DNA of 64,000 nt from Polaromonas sp. OV174. GTDB lineage: Bacteria; Pseudomonadota; Gammaproteobacteria; Burkholderiales; Burkholderiaceae_C. The stretch is from positions 186,001 through 250,000 of the forward strand of contig NZ_FOKZ01000003.1 in the NCBI RefSeq assembly GCF_900112285.1, given 5' to 3'. A program made the position numbers and the translations under genes. The notes beneath the pieces were generated by a model, which was not told the DNA's origin, made no database searches, and saw only the letters and a program-made list of their open reading frames with translations. This document shows, piece after piece, positions 18,527 through 64,000 of the stretch (position 1 is its first letter; each line of letters begins with the position of its first letter).

Positions 18527-19825
18527 TCAATTTCTCTGCTGGTTTTTTAGCTTCAGTTCGTTCAACTTATCCGCAATCCGTATCTCCAGGCCACGGTTGA
18601 CGGGCCGGTAAAAAGCCGGTGCAGCCATGCCTTCGGGAAAATAATTTTCACCGGCGGCAAAGCCATCCTCCTCGTCGTGTGCATAGCGGTAGTGCTTGCC
18701 GTAATCGAGCTCCTTCATGAGCTTGGTCGGGGCATTGCGCAGATGCAGCGGCACCGGACGCGTGCCGTCTTTCTTGATGAAAGCCTTGACCTCATTGAAG
18801 GCTTTGTACACCGCATTCGACTTGGGCGCCACTGCCAGATAAACCACGCACTGGGCCAGCGCCAGCTCGCCTTCCGGCGAACCAAGGCGCTCATAGACCT
18901 CGGCGGCATCCAGCGCCAGCCGCAAGGCGCGCGGATCAGCCAGGCCTATGTCTTCGCTGGCCATGCGCACCAGGCGGCGCGCCATGTAGCGCGGCTCCGC
19001 ACCACCATCGAGCATGCGCATGAACCAGTACAGTGCGGCGTCGGGATCGGAGCCGCGCACGGATTTATGCAGCGCCGAAATGGTGTCGTAAAACTGCTCG
19101 CCGCCCTTGTCGTAGCGGCGCAGGCGCTCGCCCAGCACCTTGAGCAGCCAGGCATCGCTGACCTCGCTGATGCTCTCGGCCCTGGCCGCCACACTGAGGG
19201 ATTCCAGGGTGTTGAGCAGGCGCCTGGCATCGCCATCGGCGTAGGCCACCAGCCGCTCTACGGCCTCATTTGCTATGTTTTCAATAGCTGGCAGCGCCCG
19301 CTCAGCAAGGACCCTGGCCACGATTTTCTTGAGATCGGGCTCGTCAAGCGGCTGCAGCACATAAACCACGGCGCGCGACAGCAAGGCCGAATTCACCTCG
19401 AACGAGGGGTTTTCCGTGGTGGCGCCAATAAAGGTGAACAGACCGCTTTCCACATGCGGCAAGAAGGCATCCTGCTGGCTTTTGTTGAAGCGGTGCACCT
19501 CATCGACAAAGACAATGGTGCGCTTGCCGCCCTGCCCTTGCCAGATGCTGGCCTGCTCGACCGCCTCGCGAATCTCCTTGACGCCGCCCAGCACCGCCGA
19601 AATGGTGATGAAATGCGCCTCGAAACTGCTGGCCATCAGCCGCGCGATGGTGGTTTTACCAACACCGGGCGGGCCCCACAGAATGCAGCTGTGCGGCTGG
19701 CCGGACTCGAAGGCAATGCGCAGCGGCATGCCCTGACCCAGCAAATGCTGCTGGCCAATGACTTCACCAAGATTTTTGGGACGCAGGCGCTCGGCCAGAG
19801 GAGGATGGGAAGAAGAAGTCGCCAT
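18527..19825 (-). CDS. rarA: Replication-associated recombination ATPase RarA
   Basis: RarA (MgsA) is a clamp-loader-like AAA+ ATPase acting at stalled replication forks. The 432-residue product has Walker A GPPGVGKTT at 51-59, Walker B DEVH at 108-111, sensor 1 IGATTENPS and the C-terminal tetramer domain with GSDPDAALYWFMRML. Residues about 169-184, between the AAA core and the lid, are encoded by a copy of the dispersed repeat; this region varies in length among RarA proteins. The gene is divergent from the LysE-type exporter gene. Confidence 0.95.
   Translation of the reverse strand: MATSSSHPPLAERLRPKNLGEVIGQQHLLGQGMPLRIAFESGQPHSCILWGPPGVGKTTIARLMASSFEAHFITISAVLGGVKEIREAVEQASIWQGQGGKRTIVFVDEVHRFNKSQQDAFLPHVESGLFTFIGATTENPSFEVNSALLSRAVVYVLQPLDEPDLKKIVARVLAERALPAIENIANEAVERLVAYADGDARRLLNTLESLSVAARAESISEVSDAWLLKVLGERLRRYDKGGEQFYDTISALHKSVRGSDPDAALYWFMRMLDGGAEPRYMARRLVRMASEDIGLADPRALRLALDAAEVYERLGSPEGELALAQCVVYLAVAPKSNAVYKAFNEVKAFIKKDGTRPVPLHLRNAPTKLMKELDYGKHYRYAHDEEDGFAAGENYFPEGMAAPAFYRPVNRGLEIRIADKLNELKLKNQQRN
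19272..19319 (+). repeat. Dispersed palindromic repeat, copy I, inside rarA
   Basis: GCTATGTTTTCAATAGCTGG then CAGCGCCCG, a spacer and a weakened right module ending CCTGGCC. It runs antisense to rarA and is read in frame as part of the segment ERALPAIENIAN (about residues 172-183). Confidence 0.6.
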
Positions 19826-34702: not shown

Positions 34703-37390
34703 ATGAACCACGCCACACCTCAGCCGCTCCCGGCGCCAGCCAGCAACCCAGTCGATCCCGACCCGCAGGAAACCGCCGAATGGCGGGATGCCTTTGAGGC
34801 CTTGCTAGCCACCCAGGGCCTGGCCAGGGCACGCCAGATGCTGGAGCAATTGAGTCTTCTTGCCAGAGAGCGCCGCATCGGCTGGCGGCCCGAACTGTCC
34901 ACGCCCTACGTCAACACCATTGGCGTGAATGAGCAACCAGTGTTTCCGGGCGACCTGGCGCTGGAAGAGCGCCTGGCCTCCTTGATGCGCTGGAATGCGC
35001 TGGCCATGGTGGTGCGCGCCAATCAGGCCGAGACCGGCGGCTCGGCCGAACTGGGCGGACATATCGCCAGTTACGCCAGTGCGGCCGATCTGTTTGAAAC
35101 CGGCTTCAACCACTTCTTTCACGCGCGCGAAGGCACGGGCGAAGGGCAACACCGCGGCGACTTGGTGTTTTTCCAGCCGCACAGCGCCCCCGGCGTTTAT
35201 GCGCGCGCCTTCCTCGAAGGCCGGCTGAGCGAAAAAGATCTGGGGTTTTACCGCCAGGAACTCAGCGCACCCAGCCATGGGGCGCAAGGCCTGTGCAGCT
35301 ACCCGCATCCCTATTTGATGCCGGACTTCTGGCAGTTCCCCACCGGCTCCATGGGCATAGGGCCCATCAGCTCGATTTACCACGCGCGCTTCATGCGCTA
35401 CCTGACGCATAGACGCCTGCTCGATTGCAGCGGCCGCAAGGTCTGGGGGGTGTTTGGCGACGGCGAAATGGACGAGCCCGAATCCATGAGCGCGCTGACG
35501 CTGGCCGCGCGCGAAGGCCTGGACAACCTGGTCTGGGTCGTCAACTGCAATCTGCAGCGCCTGGACGGACCGGTGCGCGGCAACGGCCGCATCATCGACG
35601 AGCTTGAAAAACTCTTTGCAGGCGCCGGCTGGAACGTCATCAAGCTGGTCTGGGGCAGCGACTGGGACGGCCTGTTTGCCCGCGACCTGAGCGGCGCCCT
35701 GACGCAAGCCTTCGCCCACACCGTGGACGGCCAGATGCAGACTTTTGCGGCCAAGGACGGGCGTTTCAACCGCGACAACTTCTTCGGCCAGAACGAAGAA
35801 CTGGCGCGGCTGGCGCAGGGAATGACGGACGAGCAGATCGATCGCCTCAAACGCGGCGGCCACGACCTGGTAAAAATCCATGCGGCCTACGCAGCGGCCG
35901 CCAATCACCAAGGCCAGCCCACGGTAATCCTGGCGCACACAAAAAAAGGCTATGGCATGGGTAGCACCGGCCAAGGCAAGATGACCACGCATTCGCAAAA
36001 GAAATTCGACGAGACCGACCTGCTGGAATTTCGCAACCGCTTCAACCTGCCGCTCAGCGACGAGCAGGCCAGGCGTATAGATTTTTACAAGCCGGACGCC
36101 AACAGCGCCGAGATGCAATACCTGCACGCCAAACGCCAGGCGCTGGGCGGCTATCTGCCCAGGCGCGAAACCACGGCAGAACAAATCGCCATCCCTGCCC
36201 TGCCCTCCTACGCCGGCTTTGCGCTGGCCGCCGACGGCAAGGAAATGAGCACCACCATGGCTTTTGTGCGCATGCTGGGCGGCCTGCTGAAAGACCCGGC
36301 GCTGGGGCCGAAGATCGTGCCCATAGTCGCCGATGAGGCGCGCACCTTCGGCATGGCCAATCTGTTCAAGCAGGTCGGCATTTATTCCAGCGTCGGCCAG
36401 AAATACGCGCCCGAGGACATAGGCTCGGTGCTGAGCTACCGCGAGGCGCTGGACGGCCAGATCCTGGAAGAAGGCATCAGCGAAGCCGGCGCGCTGGCCA
36501 GCTGGACGGCGGCCGCCACCAGCTACAGCGTGCACGGGCTGGCGATGCTGCCTTTTTATATTTACTACTCGATGTTCGGCTTCCAGCGCGTGGGCGACCA
36601 GATCTGGGCCGCGGCCGACCAGCGCGCCCGCGGCTTTTTGCTGGGCGCCACCTCGGGCCGCACCACCCTGGGCGGCGAAGGCCTGCAGCACCAGGACGGC
36701 TCCAGCCACCTGGCGGCCGCCACCATTCCCAACTGCAAGGCCTACGACCCGGCTTTTGCGGGCGAGCTGGCCGTCATCATCGACCGCGGCATGCGCGAGA
36801 TGATGACCGAACAGCAAGACGTGTTTTATTACGTGACCCTGATGAACGAAAACTACGCCCAGCCCGATTTGCGGCCAGGCGCGGAGGCCGACATCATTCG
36901 TGGTTGCTACCAATTCAATAGCTACTTTCGCCTGTCGGACAAGGGCCAGAACCCTGAAATGCTTAAGAAAGTGACCCAAACCGTCACCTTGCTGGGCTCG
37001 GGCGCCATTTTGACCGAGGTCATCAAGGCCGCGCAGCAACTGGCAGAACTTGGCATAGTGGCGACGGTTTACAGCGTGACCAGCTGGAGCGAACTGGCAC
37101 GCGACGGCGCGGCCTGCCAGCAAGATGCGCTGAACGGTGATGGCGCGCCGCGTGAGGCCTTCATCACGCAGCAGTTGCGCAGCAGCCAAGGCCCCATCAT
37201 CGCCGCCACCGACTATGTGCGCGCCGTGCCGGAAAGCATTCGCGCCTTTCTGCCGGCAGGCCGCAGCTATCTGACGCTGGGCACCGACGGTTTCGGCCGC
37301 AGCGACACCCGGGCCGCGCTGCGCGAGTTTTTCGGCGTCAATGCCAGAAGCATCGCCAAGGCGGCGTTGCACCAGCTCAAGTCAACGTAA
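34703..37390 (+). CDS. Pyruvate dehydrogenase E1 (homodimeric, AceE-like), stand-alone
   Basis: This 895-residue thiamine diphosphate enzyme is of the AceE/MdeB family, which decarboxylates pyruvate (or 2-ketobutyrate for MdeB). The TPP motif GDGEMDEPES is at about 252-261, with NCNLQRLDGPVRGN downstream. The C-terminal half contains GISEAGALASWTAAATSY and FYYVTLMNENY. Residues about 735-751 (CYQFNSYFRLSDKGQNP) come from a dispersed repeat copy in a loop that is shorter in E. coli AceE as I remember it. No E2 or E3 gene is adjacent, which suggests a paralog of the main aceEF locus. ATG 34703 begins the family-like part. Confidence 0.88.
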   Translation: MNHATPQPLPAPASNPVDPDPQETAEWRDAFEALLATQGLARARQMLEQLSLLARERRIGWRPELSTPYVNTIGVNEQPVFPGDLALEERLASLMRWNALAMVVRANQAETGGSAELGGHIASYASAADLFETGFNHFFHAREGTGEGQHRGDLVFFQPHSAPGVYARAFLEGRLSEKDLGFYRQELSAPSHGAQGLCSYPHPYLMPDFWQFPTGSMGIGPISSIYHARFMRYLTHRRLLDCSGRKVWGVFGDGEMDEPESMSALTLAAREGLDNLVWVVNCNLQRLDGPVRGNGRIIDELEKLFAGAGWNVIKLVWGSDWDGLFARDLSGALTQAFAHTVDGQMQTFAAKDGRFNRDNFFGQNEELARLAQGMTDEQIDRLKRGGHDLVKIHAAYAAAANHQGQPTVILAHTKKGYGMGSTGQGKMTTHSQKKFDETDLLEFRNRFNLPLSDEQARRIDFYKPDANSAEMQYLHAKRQALGGYLPRRETTAEQIAIPALPSYAGFALAADGKEMSTTMAFVRMLGGLLKDPALGPKIVPIVADEARTFGMANLFKQVGIYSSVGQKYAPEDIGSVLSYREALDGQILEEGISEAGALASWTAAATSYSVHGLAMLPFYIYYSMFGFQRVGDQIWAAADQRARGFLLGATSGRTTLGGEGLQHQDGSSHLAAATIPNCKAYDPAFAGELAVIIDRGMREMMTEQQDVFYYVTLMNENYAQPDLRPGAEADIIRGCYQFNSYFRLSDKGQNPEMLKKVTQTVTLLGSGAILTEVIKAAQQLAELGIVATVYSVTSWSELARDGAACQQDALNGDGAPREAFITQQLRSSQGPIIAATDYVRAVPESIRAFLPAGRSYLTLGTDGFGRSDTRAALREFFGVNARSIAKAALHQLKST
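36906..36954 (+). repeat. Dispersed palindromic repeat, copy J, inside the aceE-like gene
   Basis: GCTACCAATTCAATAGCTAC, then TTTCGCCTG, a spacer, and AAGGGCCAGAACCC. It is sense with the gene and read in frame. The match is weaker than for intergenic copies but keeps module order and spacing. Confidence 0.5.
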
Positions 37391-40684: not shown

Positions 40685-41800
40685 ATGGATTTTGATTTCA
40701 CCGACGACCAGGAACAACTGCGCGACGCGGTGCGCAAATGGGTGGACAAGGGCTACGACTTCGAGCGCCGCCGCGCCATCGTCAAGGGCGGCGGATTTTC
40801 TCGCGAAGCGTACGGCCAGCTGGCCGAACTCGGCCTGACCGGCCTCTATGTTCCCGAGGCCCAAGGCGGGCTCGGCATGGGACCGGTGGAAGCCATGGTG
40901 GTGATGGAAGAACTGGGACGCGGCATGGTGCTGGAGCCCTTGACCCAGACCCTGATCGCCGGCGCCCTGCTCGCCGGCTACGCGCCCGAGGCCTTGCAGT
41001 CGGCTTGGCTGCCAAAAATAGCTTCTGGCGAGAGCCTGGTGGTGCTGGCCTACCAGGAGCGCGCAGCCCGCTACCATTTTGAAAAATGCGAGGCAAAAGC
41101 GGCTCTAGCCCAGGATACATGGTCGCTGACAGCTACCAAAAGCATAGTGCCCGCAGGCGACCAGGCCGATGCCTTCATCGTGCCGGCGCTGGTTCAGGGC
41201 AAGATGGCGCTGTTTCTGATCGAGCGCTCGGCGGCCGGCGTGGCCACGCGCGGCTACGCCACGCAGGACGGCGGACGCGCCGCAGAAGTCACGCTGAGCA
41301 ATGCACCGGCCAGCCTGATCACGCTGGATGGTTTGAGCGCGCTGGAACACGCGGTGGACATAGGCATTGCCGCCAGTTGCGCCGAAGCAGTCGGCGTGAT
41401 GGACAAGACGCTGGCGGTGACGGTGGAGTACATGAACACGCGCAAGCAGTTCGGCGTGGCCATCGCGAGCTTTCAGGCGCTGCGCCATCGCGTCGCCGAC
41501 ATGAAGATGCAGCTGGAGCTGGCCCGCTCCATGAGTTACTACGCCTCGCTCAAGCTCAATGCGCCGCTAGAGGAGCGGCGCCGCGCGCTGGCCAGGGCCA
41601 AGTACCAGCTGGGGGTGTCCATGCGCTTCGTCGGCCAGCAGGCGGTGCAGCTGCATGGCGGCATAGGCGTGACCGACGAGTACATCGTCAGCCATTACTT
41701 CAAGAAACTGACCCAGCTGGAGATGAGCTTTGGCGACACCCTGCACCAGTTGGGCGAGGTGTCGCGCCAGATGCAGGACAGCGCCGGCGTTTTCGCCTGA
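40685..41800 (+). CDS. Acyl-CoA dehydrogenase, PimD-like small subunit
   Basis: The 371-residue partner of the PimC-like protein starts MDFDFTDDQEQLRDAVRKWV and ends with VQLHGGIGVTDEYIVSHYFK, the C-terminal acyl-CoA dehydrogenase signature. Residues about 129-154 (including AALAQDTW and ATKSIV) are encoded by a dispersed repeat copy. This is the beta domain, where homologs usually read a conserved DGW..G.KS pattern; Gly before Lys is replaced by Thr. AAAGGACAAG precedes the ATG. It is co-transcribed with the preceding gene. Confidence 0.88.
   Translation: MDFDFTDDQEQLRDAVRKWVDKGYDFERRRAIVKGGGFSREAYGQLAELGLTGLYVPEAQGGLGMGPVEAMVVMEELGRGMVLEPLTQTLIAGALLAGYAPEALQSAWLPKIASGESLVVLAYQERAARYHFEKCEAKAALAQDTWSLTATKSIVPAGDQADAFIVPALVQGKMALFLIERSAAGVATRGYATQDGGRAAEVTLSNAPASLITLDGLSALEHAVDIGIAASCAEAVGVMDKTLAVTVEYMNTRKQFGVAIASFQALRHRVADMKMQLELARSMSYYASLKLNAPLEERRRALARAKYQLGVSMRFVGQQAVQLHGGIGVTDEYIVSHYFKKLTQLEMSFGDTLHQLGEVSRQMQDSAGVFA
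41071..41146 (-). repeat. Dispersed palindromic repeat, copy K, inside the pimD-like gene
   Basis: On the minus strand it reads CTATGCTTTTGGTAGCTGTC, then AGCGACCATG, a short spacer, CTGGGCTAGAGCC and a T-rich tail extending to 41071. It is antisense to the gene and read in frame. GGGCTAGAGCC is a perfect match to the right module. Confidence 0.68.
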
Positions 41801-52957: not shown

Positions 52958-53771
52958 AGGGCAGGCCCAGCACCTGCAGCAGAATCAGCGCCGCCTCCAG
53001 GGTGAATTCATCGCGCTGCAAGGCGGCCAGCAATTGACCTTTATCCATCAGGCAAAACTGCGCCACCTCGCCATCCTGGTTATCTGGCGTCAAACCATCG
53101 GGCACGGTGCAGACATACCAGTCGATGTGCTCGCTGACATAACCGGCGCCCCGGCCATCCTGGCTGGGCCGGCAGATGCTCAGGCGCCCGCCGTAGCGCA
53201 TGGCCTGCAGCTCGACAATCCGCAGGCCGGCCTCCTCCCAGGTCTCACGCGCCAGCGCGGTTTCAAGCGTGTCCGCCGCCGCCACCATGCCGCCCATCAA
53301 GGTATCCCACAGACCGGGGTCGTTGGCCTTGTCCAGGGCTCGCTGCTGCACCCAGACGCTGCCCTCAGGCGTTTGCCCCACCAGATGCACGGCCTGCGTC
53401 ACTATGCCCAACGGCCTGACCGCGGCTCGCTCTACCGTGCCCTGGCGCTGGCCCGACGGATCGGACACCGCGAGCTGCTCGTTGCGCCAGGCGCCGGCCA
53501 GGCCGGCTTCATGCAAGGCCGTGGCGACGCGGTTCAGGCCGCTCGTCACATCGCCCAGCAAGCGCCAGCCGGCCTGCTCCGAATACTCTTCTTTTAATAG
53601 CGGGTTGCGCCCGTCCAGCAAGGGCTGGAGGGCTATTTGACGTAAAAAATCGGTTTCCACCGAGCCAATCACAGCGTCCCCGGCCCAGAGCGGTACCCGC
53701 GGGCGCAACGGCGCCTGGCTGGCAGCCGCCTGCAGACGGCGCAACCATTGGGCATCAAACTCAAGCGGCAT
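52956..53771 (-). CDS. NUDIX hydrolase, DUF4743 type
   Basis: This 271-residue protein has an N-terminal DUF4743-like domain and a C-terminal NUDIX domain. The box is GGMVAAADTLETALARETWEEAG (about 165-187), spoken of here in parts: GG, the E of LETALARE, and REUxEE as RETWEE. Homologs include TPP- or 8-oxo-nucleotide-directed enzymes; the substrate is unknown. Residues about 45-61 (IALQPLLDGRNPLLKE) are encoded by a dispersed repeat copy in the N-terminal domain. It follows the quinone oxidoreductase gene by 11 bp and is probably co-transcribed. Confidence 0.85.
   Translation of the reverse strand: MPLEFDAQWLRRLQAAASQAPLRPRVPLWAGDAVIGSVETDFLRQIALQPLLDGRNPLLKEEYSEQAGWRLLGDVTSGLNRVATALHEAGLAGAWRNEQLAVSDPSGQRQGTVERAAVRPLGIVTQAVHLVGQTPEGSVWVQQRALDKANDPGLWDTLMGGMVAAADTLETALARETWEEAGLRIVELQAMRYGGRLSICRPSQDGRGAGYVSEHIDWYVCTVPDGLTPDNQDGEVAQFCLMDKGQLLAALQRDEFTLEAALILLQVLGLP
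53591..53639 (+). repeat. Dispersed palindromic repeat, copy N, inside the NUDIX gene
   Basis: CTTTTAATAGCGGGTTGCGC then CCGTCCAGC, AAGGGCTGGAGG and CTATTT. It keeps all modules after the left arm and is antisense to the gene. The CCGTCCAGCAAG spacer is shared with copy M in the SDR gene. Confidence 0.68.
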
Positions 53772-59855: not shown

Positions 59856-60223
59856 GCATCCAGGTCAAAACGCTGCCGAAACTGCTCGGAAAACGCCGGG
59901 CTGGCGCTGAGCAACAGCGTGAAAGTGTGGCGCGGCTTGCCGGCCGGCCCGCTCTGCACGGACAGCTGGCGCGTGGCCGCGTCGTAGCTGAGCTGATCAG
60001 TGGCGCTGAATTCGCGCAAGCCATGCAGGTCGTAATCCCAGTCGCCGCCCTCGGCCACCGGAGCGCGGGTATCGGGAAAAGCCTGGTGAGCCCAATCGAG
60101 CACGCTGACAATTTCAGCCTGCACGGCTGGCACCTGCTCGGCCCAGATCGAGGCCATGGCTTCAAAGCTGCCCGTGCCCTCGGTATCTTCGCTGTAGTCA
60201 AAGCTCAGGTAGCGCAGCTCCAT
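59849..60223 (-). CDS. Hypothetical protein, conserved with ClsC-like gene
   Basis: I do not recognise this 124-residue soluble acidic protein. It begins MELRYLSFDYSEDTEGTGSF and has a predicted alternation of strands and helices, with the motif GGDWDYDLHG around residue 60. It has no signal peptide, membrane segment or cysteine cluster. Its end overlaps the ClsC-like gene by seven bases and it lies 17 bp after the SDR stop, so the three genes are almost certainly one operon. Codon use matches its neighbours. Confidence 0.75.
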   Translation of the reverse strand: MELRYLSFDYSEDTEGTGSFEAMASIWAEQVPAVQAEIVSVLDWAHQAFPDTRAPVAEGGDWDYDLHGLREFSATDQLSYDAATRQLSVQSGPAGKPRHTFTLLLSASPAFSEQFRQRFDLDAC

Positions 60224-60240
60224 GGCATCGGTCTCTGTGC

Positions 60241-61035
60241 TCAAAACGTTCCGGGATAGGCGCCGCCGTCGGCCAGCACATTCTGACCAGTCATGTAGCC
60301 AGCCTGCACACTGCATAAAAAGGCGCAGATGGCGCCGAACTCTTCGGCTGTGCCAAAGCGTTGCGCCGGGATTTGCGCCGCCTGGGCCTGGCGGATGTCA
60401 TCCAGGCTCTTGCCGGTTTTTTGCGCTGCGGCGCCCATCGTCGAGGCCAGACGGTCGGTATCGAACTTGCCCGGCAGCAAGTTGTTGAGGGTGACGCCGC
60501 GCGAGGCCAGCTTGCTGCGCGCCACACCGGCGACAAAACCGGTCAGGCCGCTGCGTGCGCCGTTGCTCAAGCCCAGAATATCTATGGGTGCCTTGACGGC
60601 GCTGGAGGTGATGTTGATGACGCGGCCAAAGCCACGCTCCGCCATGCCATCGACCGTGGCCTTGATGAGCTCGATAGGCGTCAGCATATTGGCGTCCACC
60701 GCCTTGATCCAGCTGTCCCTATCCCAGTCGCGGAAATCGCCGGTGGGCGGACCGCCTGCGTTGGTGACGACGATGTCGAAATCCTTGCGTAGCGCAAAAA
60801 CCGCGGCCCGACCTTCGATCGTGGTGATGTCTGCAGCAACATATTGCACTGTAGCGCTTGCTGGACGGTCGCTATCAGCTATTAATTTACTAGCAGCCAG
60901 CTGCAGCGCCTCGGCACCGCGGGCGACGATGAGCACATGCACGCCCTCACGCACCAGGGCTTGTGCGCAGCCAAAACCCAGCCCCTTGCTGGCGCCGCAT
61001 ACCAGCGCCCATTTACCGGCAATACCTAAATTCAT
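60241..61035 (-). CDS. SDR family oxidoreductase with atypical active site
   Basis: This 264-residue short-chain dehydrogenase has the cofactor motif GASKGLGFG (14-22) and NAGG (about 92-95). Where the classical YxxxK is expected, the sequence reads LSNGAR (about 154-159), so the catalytic Tyr is missing and Lys is replaced by Arg. This pattern recurs in a beta-ketoacyl-reductase-like subgroup as I remember it, whose activity is unclear. Residues about 48-63 come from a dispersed repeat copy. AAGGA precedes the ATG. It lies between the DMT exporter and the ClsC-like operon. Confidence 0.85.
   Translation of the reverse strand: MNLGIAGKWALVCGASKGLGFGCAQALVREGVHVLIVARGAEALQLAASKLIADSDRPASATVQYVAADITTIEGRAAVFALRKDFDIVVTNAGGPPTGDFRDWDRDSWIKAVDANMLTPIELIKATVDGMAERGFGRVINITSSAVKAPIDILGLSNGARSGLTGFVAGVARSKLASRGVTLNNLLPGKFDTDRLASTMGAAAQKTGKSLDDIRQAQAAQIPAQRFGTAEEFGAICAFLCSVQAGYMTGQNVLADGGAYPGTF
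60847..60894 (-). repeat. Dispersed palindromic repeat, copy M, inside the SDR gene
   Basis: On the minus strand it reads GCTAGTAAATTAATAGCTGA, then TAGCGACCGTCC, AGCAAG, CGCTACAGTGC. It is sense with the gene and in frame. It shares CCGTCCAGCAAG with copy N in the NUDIX gene. Confidence 0.62.
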
Positions 61036-61106
61036 AACAGTTCCTTAGAGAGCTCGAGCATGGCGAAACCGCCATGATACGAAGTTTGCGCGTCGGGCTA
61101 GCGCCC

Positions 61107-62048
61107 CTAGCGGGCCGAGCGCGTGAAGACAAAAATTCCGGCAATCACCAGCACCGTGCCGGCCGCCACCCAGGCGGTGAACGGCTCGCCCAGAATCCAC
61201 ACTCCCATCAGTATGGTGGACATAGGCCCCACCATGCCGGTCTGCGCGGACAGGCTGGCGCCAATGCGTTCAATCGCCATCATCACCATCAGCACCGGCA
61301 CGGCGGTGCACAGGATGGCATTGAGCAGCGACAGCCAGATCACCTCTGGCGCCACCGCAGCGGCGCTCAGCGGTCTGAGCAGCAAGAACTGCAGCAGGCA
61401 CAGCAGGCAGGCGATGCTGGTGGCCAGCCCCACCAGCCGTAGCGAACCCAGGCGCTTGACCAGCTCACCGCTGTAAACCATATAGATCGCATAGCTGACC
61501 GCGCTGAGTAGCACCAGCAGCGCACCCCAGGCAACGTCAGGGCCCTGCAGGGTGATTTCGTGGCCGAACACCAGCACCACGCCACAATAGCTGATGGCCA
61601 TGGCGACAACTTGCCGCCGCGTGATGCGTCGCTGGTACAGCACCAGACCCAACAGCATGACGAGAGTCGGGTTGAGATAGAGAATCAGTCGCTCCAGCGA
61701 AGCGCTGATATGGGCCAGCCCGGCAAAGTCCAAAAAGCTCGCCAGGTAGTAGCCGGTAAAGCCAAGCCAGAGCACGCCCAGCCAGTCCTTGCGCGTCAGT
61801 GCGGCCTTGCCCCGACTGGCCCACCAGGCCATCAGGGCAAAAATCGGCAGGGCAAACAGCATGCGGTACATGATCAGCGTGACGGCATCGACGCCGTAGC
61901 GGTAGGCCAGCTTGACGATGATCGCCTTGCCGCTGAAGGCGATCGCCCCGAAAGTCGCCAGCAACAGCCCGGACGCTATGCTTTTAGTAGCTGCTTGCAC
62001 CCGCTCCACTTGGGCTAGAGGCCTATTTATATCTAAATTACTGTTCAA
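61107..62048 (-). CDS. DMT superfamily transporter, second copy
   Basis: This 313-residue protein has ten hydrophobic segments (two EamA repeats). It begins with an unusual polar stretch, then FGAIAFSGKAIIVKLAYRYG. The first 25 residues are not typical: positions 7-25 (INRPLAQVERVQAATKSIAS) are encoded by a dispersed repeat copy. No ATG occurs there; TTG at 62048 with AAGGG six bases upstream is the likely start. The substrate is unknown. It is possibly the first gene of the SDR/ClsC operon, 71 bp ahead. Confidence 0.82.
   Translation of the reverse strand: MNSNLDINRPLAQVERVQAATKSIASGLLLATFGAIAFSGKAIIVKLAYRYGVDAVTLIMYRMLFALPIFALMAWWASRGKAALTRKDWLGVLWLGFTGYYLASFLDFAGLAHISASLERLILYLNPTLVMLLGLVLYQRRITRRQVVAMAISYCGVVLVFGHEITLQGPDVAWGALLVLLSAVSYAIYMVYSGELVKRLGSLRLVGLATSIACLLCLLQFLLLRPLSAAAVAPEVIWLSLLNAILCTAVPVLMVMMAIERIGASLSAQTGMVGPMSTILMGVWILGEPFTAWVAAGTVLVIAGIFVFTRSAR
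61975..62030 (+). repeat. Dispersed palindromic repeat, copy A
   Basis: GCTATGCTTTTAGTAGCTGC then TTGCACCCG, CTCCACT, TGGGCTAGAGGCC and TATTTATAT. It is the closest match to the consensus and covers the N-terminal codons of the DMT gene, antisense to it. Confidence 0.78.
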
Positions 62049-62231
62049 AACATACCCTTAAACGCCAAGCGCTCTGTTCACTGCGACAAAGCGCGCCAGC
62101 TTCCTGTTGATGAGTTTGGCACAGGAAGCGGCCAGGCGACATCTGACATTGTCGGGGTAGGCACCGCCATTGAAGACGGCTCAAGAGTCCAAAAGAAGAA
62201 ACACCGTGAACTGCGGCGCCCCACTCGCCCA

Positions 62232-62258
62232 TGAAAAACGGCGCCCTGAGGCGCCGTT
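62232..62258 (-). terminator. Terminator of the tct operon
   Basis: AACGGCGCC pairs with GGCGCCGTT around a 4 nt loop; on the minus strand five T follow. It lies 26 bp after the tctA stop. Confidence 0.88.
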
Positions 62259-62283
62259 GAATCAGAACGTCAAGAGGCGATGA

Positions 62284-63795
62284 TCAGTCCTCGACGAAAG
62301 CCTCTTCCCGTTTACTCTTGACGGCGGGCAGCAGCACGATCACCAGCATCAGAGCGGCGGCAACCAGCAGGCCAGCAGACAGGGGACGCGTCACGAACAC
62401 GCTCCAGTCGCCACGCGACAGCAGCAGCGCCCGGCGCAGGTTTTCTTCCATCATGGGGCCCAGGATGAAACCGAGCAGCAAAGGTGCGGGTTCGCAGCCG
62501 AGCTTGACGAAGGCGTAACCGATCACACCAAAAATGCCCACCATCCACACGTCAAACGTGTTGTTGTTGGTCGAGTACACACCAATGGCGCAGAACAGCA
62601 CGATGGACGGGAACAGATAGCGGTAGGGCACGGTCAGCAGCTTGATCCACATGCCGATCAGCGGCAGGTTCAAAACCACCAGCATGGCATTGCCGATCCA
62701 CATCGAGGCGATCAGGCCCCAGAACAGTTCGGGGTTGCTGGTCATGACCTGCGGGCCGGGCTGAATGTTGTGAATCGTCATGGCGCCCACCATCAGGGCC
62801 ATCACGGCGTTGGGCGGAATGCCCAGCGTCAGCAGCGGAATGAAGGAAGTCTGCGAACCGGCATTGTTGGCCGACTCTGGCGACGCCACACCGCGGATGT
62901 TGCCCTGACCAAAAGGCACTTCGCCCGGCTTCATCTTCATCTTCTTTTCCAGCGCATAGGCGGCAAAGGCCGACAACAAGGCGCCACCGCCAGGCAGAAT
63001 GCCCAAAGCACAACCCAAAGCGGTACCGCGCAGCACGGCAGGCGTCATGTCCTTGAAATCCTGCTTGGTCGGGAACAGACCGGACACCTTGGCCGTGAAG
63101 ACCTCGCGCTCATGCTCTGGCTGCGACAGGTTGCTGATGATCTCGCCGTAGCCGAACACGCCCATGGCAATCACCACGAAGCCGATGCCATCGGTCAGTT
63201 CAGGAATGTCAAAGCTGAAGCGAGCCACGCCCGAGTTCACGTCGGTGCCGATCAGGCCGAGCAGCAGGCCCAGCACGATCATGGCAATCGCCTTGAGCAG
63301 TGAGCCCGAAGCCAGCACCACGGCGCCGATCAGGCCCAGGGTCATCAGCGAAAAATACTCGGCAGGGCCGAACTTGAAGGCCAACTCGGTCAGTGGCGGC
63401 GCGAAGGCGGCCAGGATCAGCGTGCCGACGCAACCGGCAAAGAAGGAGCCCAGGCCCGCGGCAGCCAGTGCCGGCCCCGCCCGCCCTTTTCGCGCCATCT
63501 GGTAGCCGTCAATACAGGTGACCGCCGACGAAGACTCTCCCGGCAAATTCACCAGAATGGCGGTAGTGGAGCCGCCATACTGCGCACCGTAATAAATACC
63601 GGCCAGCATGATCAGCGCCGACACCGGGGGCAATGCGTAGGTGGCGGGCAGCAGCATGGCGATGGTGGCGACCGGACCGATGCCCGGAAGGACGCCAATC
63701 AGCGTTCCCAAAACACAGCCCACCAAGCAGTACAGCAGGTTGATCGGCGTGAAGGCCACGCCAAACCCCAGCGACAAATGTTGAAGCAATTCCAT
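62284..63795 (-). CDS. tctA: Tripartite tricarboxylate transporter permease TctA
   Basis: This 503-residue membrane protein with about twelve hydrophobic segments is the large permease of a Tct importer. The family signature is FTPINLLYCLVGCVLGTLIG, then GVLPGIGPVATIAMLLP, and a central GALLS and PPNAVMALM segment. It works with TctB (partial here) and a periplasmic TctC/Bug protein. No binding protein lies beside the visible part. Substrates of this family are citrate-like carboxylates. Confidence 0.95.
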   Translation of the reverse strand: MELLQHLSLGFGVAFTPINLLYCLVGCVLGTLIGVLPGIGPVATIAMLLPATYALPPVSALIMLAGIYYGAQYGGSTTAILVNLPGESSSAVTCIDGYQMARKGRAGPALAAAGLGSFFAGCVGTLILAAFAPPLTELAFKFGPAEYFSLMTLGLIGAVVLASGSLLKAIAMIVLGLLLGLIGTDVNSGVARFSFDIPELTDGIGFVVIAMGVFGYGEIISNLSQPEHEREVFTAKVSGLFPTKQDFKDMTPAVLRGTALGCALGILPGGGALLSAFAAYALEKKMKMKPGEVPFGQGNIRGVASPESANNAGSQTSFIPLLTLGIPPNAVMALMVGAMTIHNIQPGPQVMTSNPELFWGLIASMWIGNAMLVVLNLPLIGMWIKLLTVPYRYLFPSIVLFCAIGVYSTNNNTFDVWMVGIFGVIGYAFVKLGCEPAPLLLGFILGPMMEENLRRALLLSRGDWSVFVTRPLSAGLLVAAALMLVIVLLPAVKSKREEAFVED

Positions 63796-63807
63796 TTTTT
63801 TATATCC

Positions 63808-64000
63808 TTAGCCGGTAATGAAGGTGGGCCATACCACGAACTGCAGCTTTAGCGCCATGACGAAAGCGACGTAACTGCCCACCGCCAAAATAGTGGCCAA
63901 AATAAACGTGTTCTTAACTTTCCAACCGGATTCCGCCATGCTGGCGATAAAGGTCAGGAAGTAAATTCCAACAATCATGCCCAAGGCTGGCACGCCAATC
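63808..64000 (-). CDS. tctB: Tripartite tricarboxylate transporter small permease TctB, C-terminal part
   Basis: The last about 64 residues of a small membrane protein are visible, with two hydrophobic segments (about MIVGIYFLTFIA and TFILATILAVGSYVAFV) and ending QFVVWPTFITG. The frame stays open to the window edge, so the N-terminal part lies outside. Position just ahead of tctA, 12 bp away, identifies it. Confidence 0.8.
   Translation of the reverse strand, partial: IGVPALGMIVGIYFLTFIASMAESGWKVKNTFILATILAVGSYVAFVMALKLQFVVWPTFITG

Follow-up and report, generated by a model that had tools for sequence, protein, structure and literature searches.

A dispersed repeat at the 5' end of a DMT exporter gene in Polaromonas and related genera

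The exporter locus

The window, i.e. the whole 64-kb stretch of Polaromonas sp. OV174 DNA that was analysed, contains an exporter gene of the DMT/EamA family and, beside it, an SDR gene, each of which carries an in-frame copy of a dispersed repeat (Table 1). The EamA match in the exporter reached 116.8 bits, against a curated cut-off of 28.2, and fell into two stretches, the best of which covers residues 26-161. Exporters of this family have about ten membrane helices. A search for solved relatives of the protein yielded none at E 0.01. AlphaFold2, run on 26 sequences, gave a mean pLDDT of 79.5 in the best of five models and 54.1 in the worst. The model contains eleven helical stretches, two of which (residues 116-123 and 126-137) are short and perhaps form one broken helix, and this predicted count fits the expectation for the family.

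The reading frame upstream of the gene closes at a TAA (62060-62058), and the TTG at 62048 is the first start codon after it. The initial annotation had held that the region offers no ATG and that only this TTG, with AAGGG six bases upstream, can start the gene. We confirmed the position of the AAGGG (62059-62055) and the absence of any in-frame ATG from the upstream TAA to codon 25. The TTG is indeed present, but it is not the only candidate, as in-frame GTGs occur at codons 14 and 17 (36 and 27 nt ahead of codon 26). A promoter scan of 61900-62320 detected none. On the strand opposite to the gene (+), a terminator-like hairpin was found at 62011-62025, inside the repeat copy of the exporter gene; two such hairpins occur in the scanned region versus 0.3 expected.

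The ORF that ends upstream of the exporter gene has what we take to be a gamma-glutamyltransferase-like C terminus in nine of the 14 loci examined. This gene, unlike in those nine loci, was not found here (62060-62283); tblastn with the corresponding protein of another locus (L046) found no remnant of it upstream of the exporter gene, and its best matches elsewhere in the genome are 56% identical. The upstream gene in the window is presumably tctA. A Cis8_sRNA match of 43.1 bits, below the gathering score of 58, lies at 62630-62757 (+), antisense to the upstream gene.

Table 1. Positions of the exporter gene, its start region and the two in-frame repeat copies in the window.
Feature	Positions	Strand	Remarks
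Second in-frame repeat copy, antisense inside the SDR gene (60241-61035, -)	60838-60895	+	R1 42.1 bits; one of the 15 seeds
DMT/EamA-family exporter ORF	61107-62048	-	313 aa, start TTG; Pfam EamA PF00892
Remainder of the exporter gene, codon 26 onward (EamA part, beyond the repeat match)	61107-61973	-	Best Pfam stretch from residue 26; first helix predicted at 24-50
Copy of the dispersed repeat of about 60 bp, in frame, codons 7-25 of the exporter gene	61974-62028	-	R1 55.3 bits, E 2.8e-16
TTG start codon, conserved in Polaromonas	62046-62048	-	Same in-frame position in 27/34 Polaromonas rows
AAGGG, possible Shine-Dalgarno, overlapping the in-frame TAA; not conserved in orthologs	62055-62059	-

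The repeat family and its relation to known repeats

Repeat copies were scored with a profile, R1, built from 15 copies of the same genome; the exporter copy was held out, while the SDR copy of the window was among the seeds. With this model the exporter copy ranked first among 18 window matches and second among the 150 scored of 2302 genome candidates, all 150 of which matched at E <= 6.6e-8. The match spans the last base of codon 7 through the end of codon 25, so that the placement of the closest consensus match at codons 7-25 by the initial annotation was borne out, and the copy inside the gene is a real feature. Its 3' border can be placed only to within about four codons, because the K-S-I-A encoded there resembles the KSLA, RSLA and KSIA of repeat-less orthologs.

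The consensus of the family is built around AAATAGGcCTCTAGCCCAataagtACGGGCGCAAGCAGCTATtAAAanaATAGCAa (20 top-scoring copies of G014, the leading genome among the matches listed), with little conservation in the flanks beyond about 15 bases before or after it. The repeat is short and variable, with a mean column identity of 70% among the R1 copies. At E <= 1e-4 it was detected in 30 of the 41 genomes of the genus, with counts of up to at least 131 per genome, and in the wider bacterial family 39 of 120 genomes had it, with counts of up to at least 44. Own-genome copies were used for these counts because an iterated profile became dominated by the SDR copies of orthologous loci.

We surveyed the location of the copies in 25 sources, the window and 24 loci, which gave 40 matches. 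After exclusion of five weak secondary matches, 35 copies were examined, 24 from the top-scoring genome matches and 11 from the window. Genes were called with a crude codon-usage script, which places the exporter start after the repeat and hence tallies the exporter copy as intergenic. By these calls, 26 copies lie between genes (11 convergent, 13 tandem, 2 divergent), seven in genes and two at contig edges. Among the window copies, 6/11 fall between genes versus 6.3% by chance (p 2e-5); the count is 5/11 if the exporter copy is taken as in-gene. Nine matches in the 64 kb exceed 39 bits. Besides the SDR copy, the same script put matches at 53584-53643, 41091-41149, 36905-36964 and 19271-19310 inside coding sequence. 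At three further loci a copy is only a few bases away from the called start of another gene (L133, 1501-1560; L141, 1501-1556; L121, 1501-1560); judging from the protein starts, we take the genes beside the first two to be leuB-like and tsaB-like, respectively.

Folding of seven single copies gave z below -2 in two of them and +1.67 for the exporter copy. RNAalifold predicted no pairs on 40 copies, and an Rfam scan of 60000-64000 returned nothing at the repeat. Two possible short helices, of four and five pairs, were paired in 90.3% of cells, versus 27-49% for slid versions; covariation in them was not above that of shuffles, the three both-side changes being equalled in 28/500 and the score being reached by 142/500.

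Among the matches listed by a search of the open-licence PMC literature, we found no description of this repeat family, BRE being the only candidate. According to the available text of its description (Hot et al. 2011, PMC3110155), BRE occurs in Betaproteobacteria including Polaromonas, is usually intergenic, with some copies within or overlapping ORF ends, and has 29 copies in Polaromonas JS666; the Bordetella BREs are 75-91 bp long, have 69% GC and are sometimes in tandem. Both are thus dispersed betaproteobacterial repeats, present in Polaromonas and mostly intergenic (PMC3110155, in the text available). However, against the 29 BRE copies reported for JS666 with another search method (PMC3110155, same text), R1 gave five matches in that genome at E <= 1e-4 (best 3e-7) among the 150 scored of 1618 candidates. 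Judging by copy number, the Polaromonas repeat is therefore probably not BRE.

REPs are 20-40 bp palindromes, of which the GTAG ones are often near RAYT transposase genes, and GTAG/CGTC REPs mostly follow genes, although some occur at the NH2 termini of ORFs, as stated in the accessible portion of a survey (PMC3733652). The repeat shares this preference for sites downstream of genes, with some copies at NH2 termini (PMC3733652, same portion), but the single Y1_Tnp gene found in the genome has no flanking copy: the best score in the 3321 bases of that locus (L152) was 1.4 bits, with an E of 0.92. Five genera looked for in the text of the survey, Polaromonas, Acidovorax, Delftia, Rhodoferax and Variovorax, are not named there.

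The RPEs of Rickettsia (Ogata et al. 2000), according to excerpts of a review (PMC2229807), are 105-146 bp long, with long stem-loops and 12-bp terminal inverted repeats, and occur both between genes and fused in frame within conserved protein genes. Like them, as far as these excerpts go (PMC2229807), the Polaromonas repeat is small and dispersed and is found between genes and in frame in conserved protein genes, here in 56/81 exporter rows and, at a loose threshold, in 59/82 SDR rows. It differs in its length of about 60 bp, in its lineage and in its lack of a supported long fold, since a long palindrome with terminal inverted repeats was seen neither with RNAalifold (no pairs on 40 copies) nor in covariation. 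By analogy, the in-frame presence acts like the known in-frame insertions of RPEs and would add one more case to a type of event already described.

Register, repeat load and distribution among orthologs

The ortholog set consisted of 81 rows, our own gene and the best 80 of 458 confirmed relatives. Loci L010-L038, which partly duplicate the named loci, are outside these rows, but were used for the repeat-load comparison and partly for the tree and the SDR gene. In the N-terminal region, 56 rows scored at least 10 bits and 25 scored less. All but two of the 56 share one register, the same repeat column falling at the same codon. Ahead of the first membrane helix (TM1), the translated tails of many rows resemble [RK]xPxAQxxxAQAxxKSIA.

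Presence in the exporter gene was compared with the number of copies in the genome. Among the 30 genomes of the genus for which the exporter locus was available, the score at this locus correlated with the genome copy count (capped at 131) with a rho of 0.89, a value which ignores kinship and includes many incomplete genomes. The exporter copy was found in 17/21 genomes with at least 20 copies and in 0/9 with fewer, again uncorrected for kinship. The repeat-rich exceptions, with less than 10 bits at the exporter, were G025 (96 copies), G006 (82 copies, score 9.8), G028 (31 copies) and G029 (23 copies). The exporter copy thus goes with the repeat load of the genome.

Since the repeat is short and variable and a score of 10 bits was also reached by 28 of 1305 control pieces, one might think that ordinary 5' coding sequence resembles, by chance, a repeat of low information content. 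However, these controls come from the same loci, and genuine copies such as that of the SDR gene are probably among them, the exporter copy has an E of 2.8e-16 in the window with the held-out model, 54 of the 56 matching rows are in one register and none of the nine repeat-poor genomes has a match. We consider chance resemblance ruled out by the rank in the genome, by the ortholog register compared with the controls and by the link with repeat load.

Rows lacking a match included Polaromonas JS666 (L062), two Variovorax and several Acidovorax. In JS666, the TTG is followed by a different tail of 17 residues, alike only in its last K-S-L-A, and in L028 and L031 codon 26 is preceded by only about seven residues. 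The rows seen thus contain no repeat-less ortholog that shares the same 25-residue tail, the observation which the initial annotation had named as contrary to its reading.

The distribution was then read on a tree of 89 rows, comprising the named loci and our own gene with at least 240 residues and eight others (L027, L031, L033 and L035 are outside). L028 and other repeat-less rows are low in this tree, whose midpoint root serves for drawing only. The label "repeat" required 20 changes, compared with a shuffled mean of 25.7, or 16 changes if weak matches are counted as present, and 36/85 inner branches are weak, which leaves a single gain followed by many losses unproven. If the site were a preferred target, separate insertions there in each genus could account for the 20 changes and for the intermixing of repeat-bearing and repeat-less Acidovorax rows. 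However, such a mixture is also expected from scattered loss or decay, and 54 of the 56 matching rows have one register, which makes independent insertions unlikely.

In the SDR gene, the in-frame antisense match lies in a loop (threshold E 1). Because this loop is equally long in the repeat-less rows L028, L030 and L034, an insertion is not demonstrated for this gene. Many Acidovorax SDR rows have a longer loop.

Start codons, the N-terminal tail and its probable origin

Start positions were expressed in nucleotides relative to codon 26, the TTG start thus being at -75, 25 codons ahead. A TTG at -75 is present in 27 of the 34 Polaromonas rows, our own included, versus 8/816 at the other in-frame codons of the tail. 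It lies 9 nt past the upstream in-frame stop in our own gene and in L040 and L041, which have the repeat, as well as in L062, which has none. The repeat-less rows L028, L029, L030, L031, L034 and L037 likewise have a TTG, ATG or GTG 0-9 nt past the upstream stop, while others (for example L080, L087 and L091) have no start so near to it. This pattern suggests that the start of our own gene is inherited. The proposal of the initial annotation that the repeat displaced the start codon therefore found no support in this gene, the TTG being in place with and without the repeat. Its other proposal, that the repeat supplies the N terminus, holds at the level of the sequence: most of the predicted tail is repeat, and the repeat is probably translated as the first amino acids of the exporter.

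Initiation at these positions is weakly marked. The AAGGG is not conserved, and a Shine-Dalgarno-like match of at least three bases (pattern list) is absent from 21 of the 27 Polaromonas rows with TTG -75, from 8/11 rows with GTG -51 and from 6/6 with ATG -36. As such matches are mostly absent, we infer that coupling to the upstream gene may be needed for initiation. The weak marking is also what one would expect if the repeat were an untranslated 5' leader and the protein started downstream, at the GTG of codon 14 or 17 or at a TTG in TM1, in which case the overlap with codons 7-25 would be an effect of annotation. A pN/pS near 1 in codons 7-12 (see below) is in line with such a leader, and the REP survey says, in its accessible portion, that many REPs at ORF NH2 termini may likewise be extragenic (PMC3733652). 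However, the concentration of TTG at -75 argues for its use, and the GTGs at -36 and -27 are each found in 3/34 Polaromonas rows. We therefore consider an untranslated leader quite unlikely.

The situation is different in two sister genera. A GTG at -51, inside the repeat, is present in 11/19 Acidovorax rows, and in 7/10 of the repeat-bearing Acidovorax rows a stop interrupts the frame at -60 or later. In Rhodoferax, an ATG at -36, also inside the repeat, is present in 6/13 rows. In total, the frame is closed by a stop at -60 or later, at the 5' edge of the repeat or within it, in 13/56 repeat-bearing rows, which must therefore start inside or after the repeat. Judging from these codons, both genera have probably shifted their start to a codon of the repeat, Acidovorax to the GTG and Rhodoferax to the ATG.

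We next considered the constraint on the tail, using 26 Polaromonas rows that combine TTG -75 with a match to the repeat; these were chosen partly by repeat score, which lowers the variation at repeat-like bases. The pN/pS ratio was 0.64 in codons 2-6, 1.05 in codons 7-12, 0.63 in codons 13-19 and 0.28 in codons 20-25, then 0.34, 0.22 and 0.36 in codons 26-45, 46-75 and 76-105. In the AlphaFold2 model, residues 1-18 have a pLDDT below 50 and the first helix spans residues 24-50. Taken together, the tail is predicted to be disordered, polar and outside the fold, and to be weakly constrained save near TM1. The residues encoded by the repeat are polar as first described, but the contrast drawn with the hydrophobic N terminus expected of EamA proteins turned out to be uninformative, as repeat-less orthologs such as L062 and L028 also have short polar tails before TM1.

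Some bases of the tail are strongly kept: GCT (codon 20), AAA (22), AGC (23) and ATA (24) occur in 24-26 of the 26 rows, and pS is 0.25 in codons 20-25 versus 0.34-0.43 in the stretches from codon 26 on. These values, together with the absence of the exporter copy where the family is absent, could indicate that the in-gene repeat is no passenger but is kept for a role at the DNA or RNA level, for example in the control of initiation or in binding a family-wide factor, which would be compatible with most of the explanation given below. However, the choice of rows by repeat score bears on these same values, codon 21 is variable, covariation was not above that of shuffles and 25/81 rows score under 10 bits. 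A role of this kind appears improbable.

The copy itself, the shared register, the pattern of start codons and the link with repeat load are in our view best explained by insertion of the repeat into the 5' end of the exporter gene and its translation as a tail, which we consider likely. A dispersed repeat of about 60 bp, probably once mobile, would have entered the gene in a single event, behind the start codon and ahead of the first membrane helix, in an ancestor shared by those Polaromonas, Rhodoferax and Acidovorax lineages that bear it. It would have done so in the sole sense frame left open by its two conserved TAG triplets; the variable middle of the repeat can also hold a stop in this frame. 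Its translation would yield a polar, unstructured tail of 18-19 residues. The old TTG start would have been kept in place in Polaromonas, while translation in Acidovorax and Rhodoferax would most likely begin at the GTG or ATG inside the repeat, often right after an in-frame stop. Most of the tail would be nearly neutral, the protein tolerating it without needing it, and genomes with few or no members of the repeat family would lack the tail.

This provides a comparative case in which a conserved membrane protein appears to have gained its N terminus from a small dispersed repeat, with likely in-repeat starts in sister genera. An abundant family, some copies of which abut start codons, could also mislead the annotation of start sites. 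One may go further and regard this undescribed family, which extends across many genera within one betaproteobacterial family, as a lasting supplier of protein termini and of start codons. In a single gene, the register would have been kept across three genera while the start moved from before the repeat to two points inside it, and the in-gene copy would be held or lost along with the family at large, as though a single genome-wide factor kept the repeat in place, reading frames included. We regard this wider proposal as improbable.

Two rows, L076 (one of the 13 mentioned above) and L025, have a stop at -60 and no in-frame ATG, GTG or TTG before codon 26, and are candidates for a non-standard or later start or for a dead gene.
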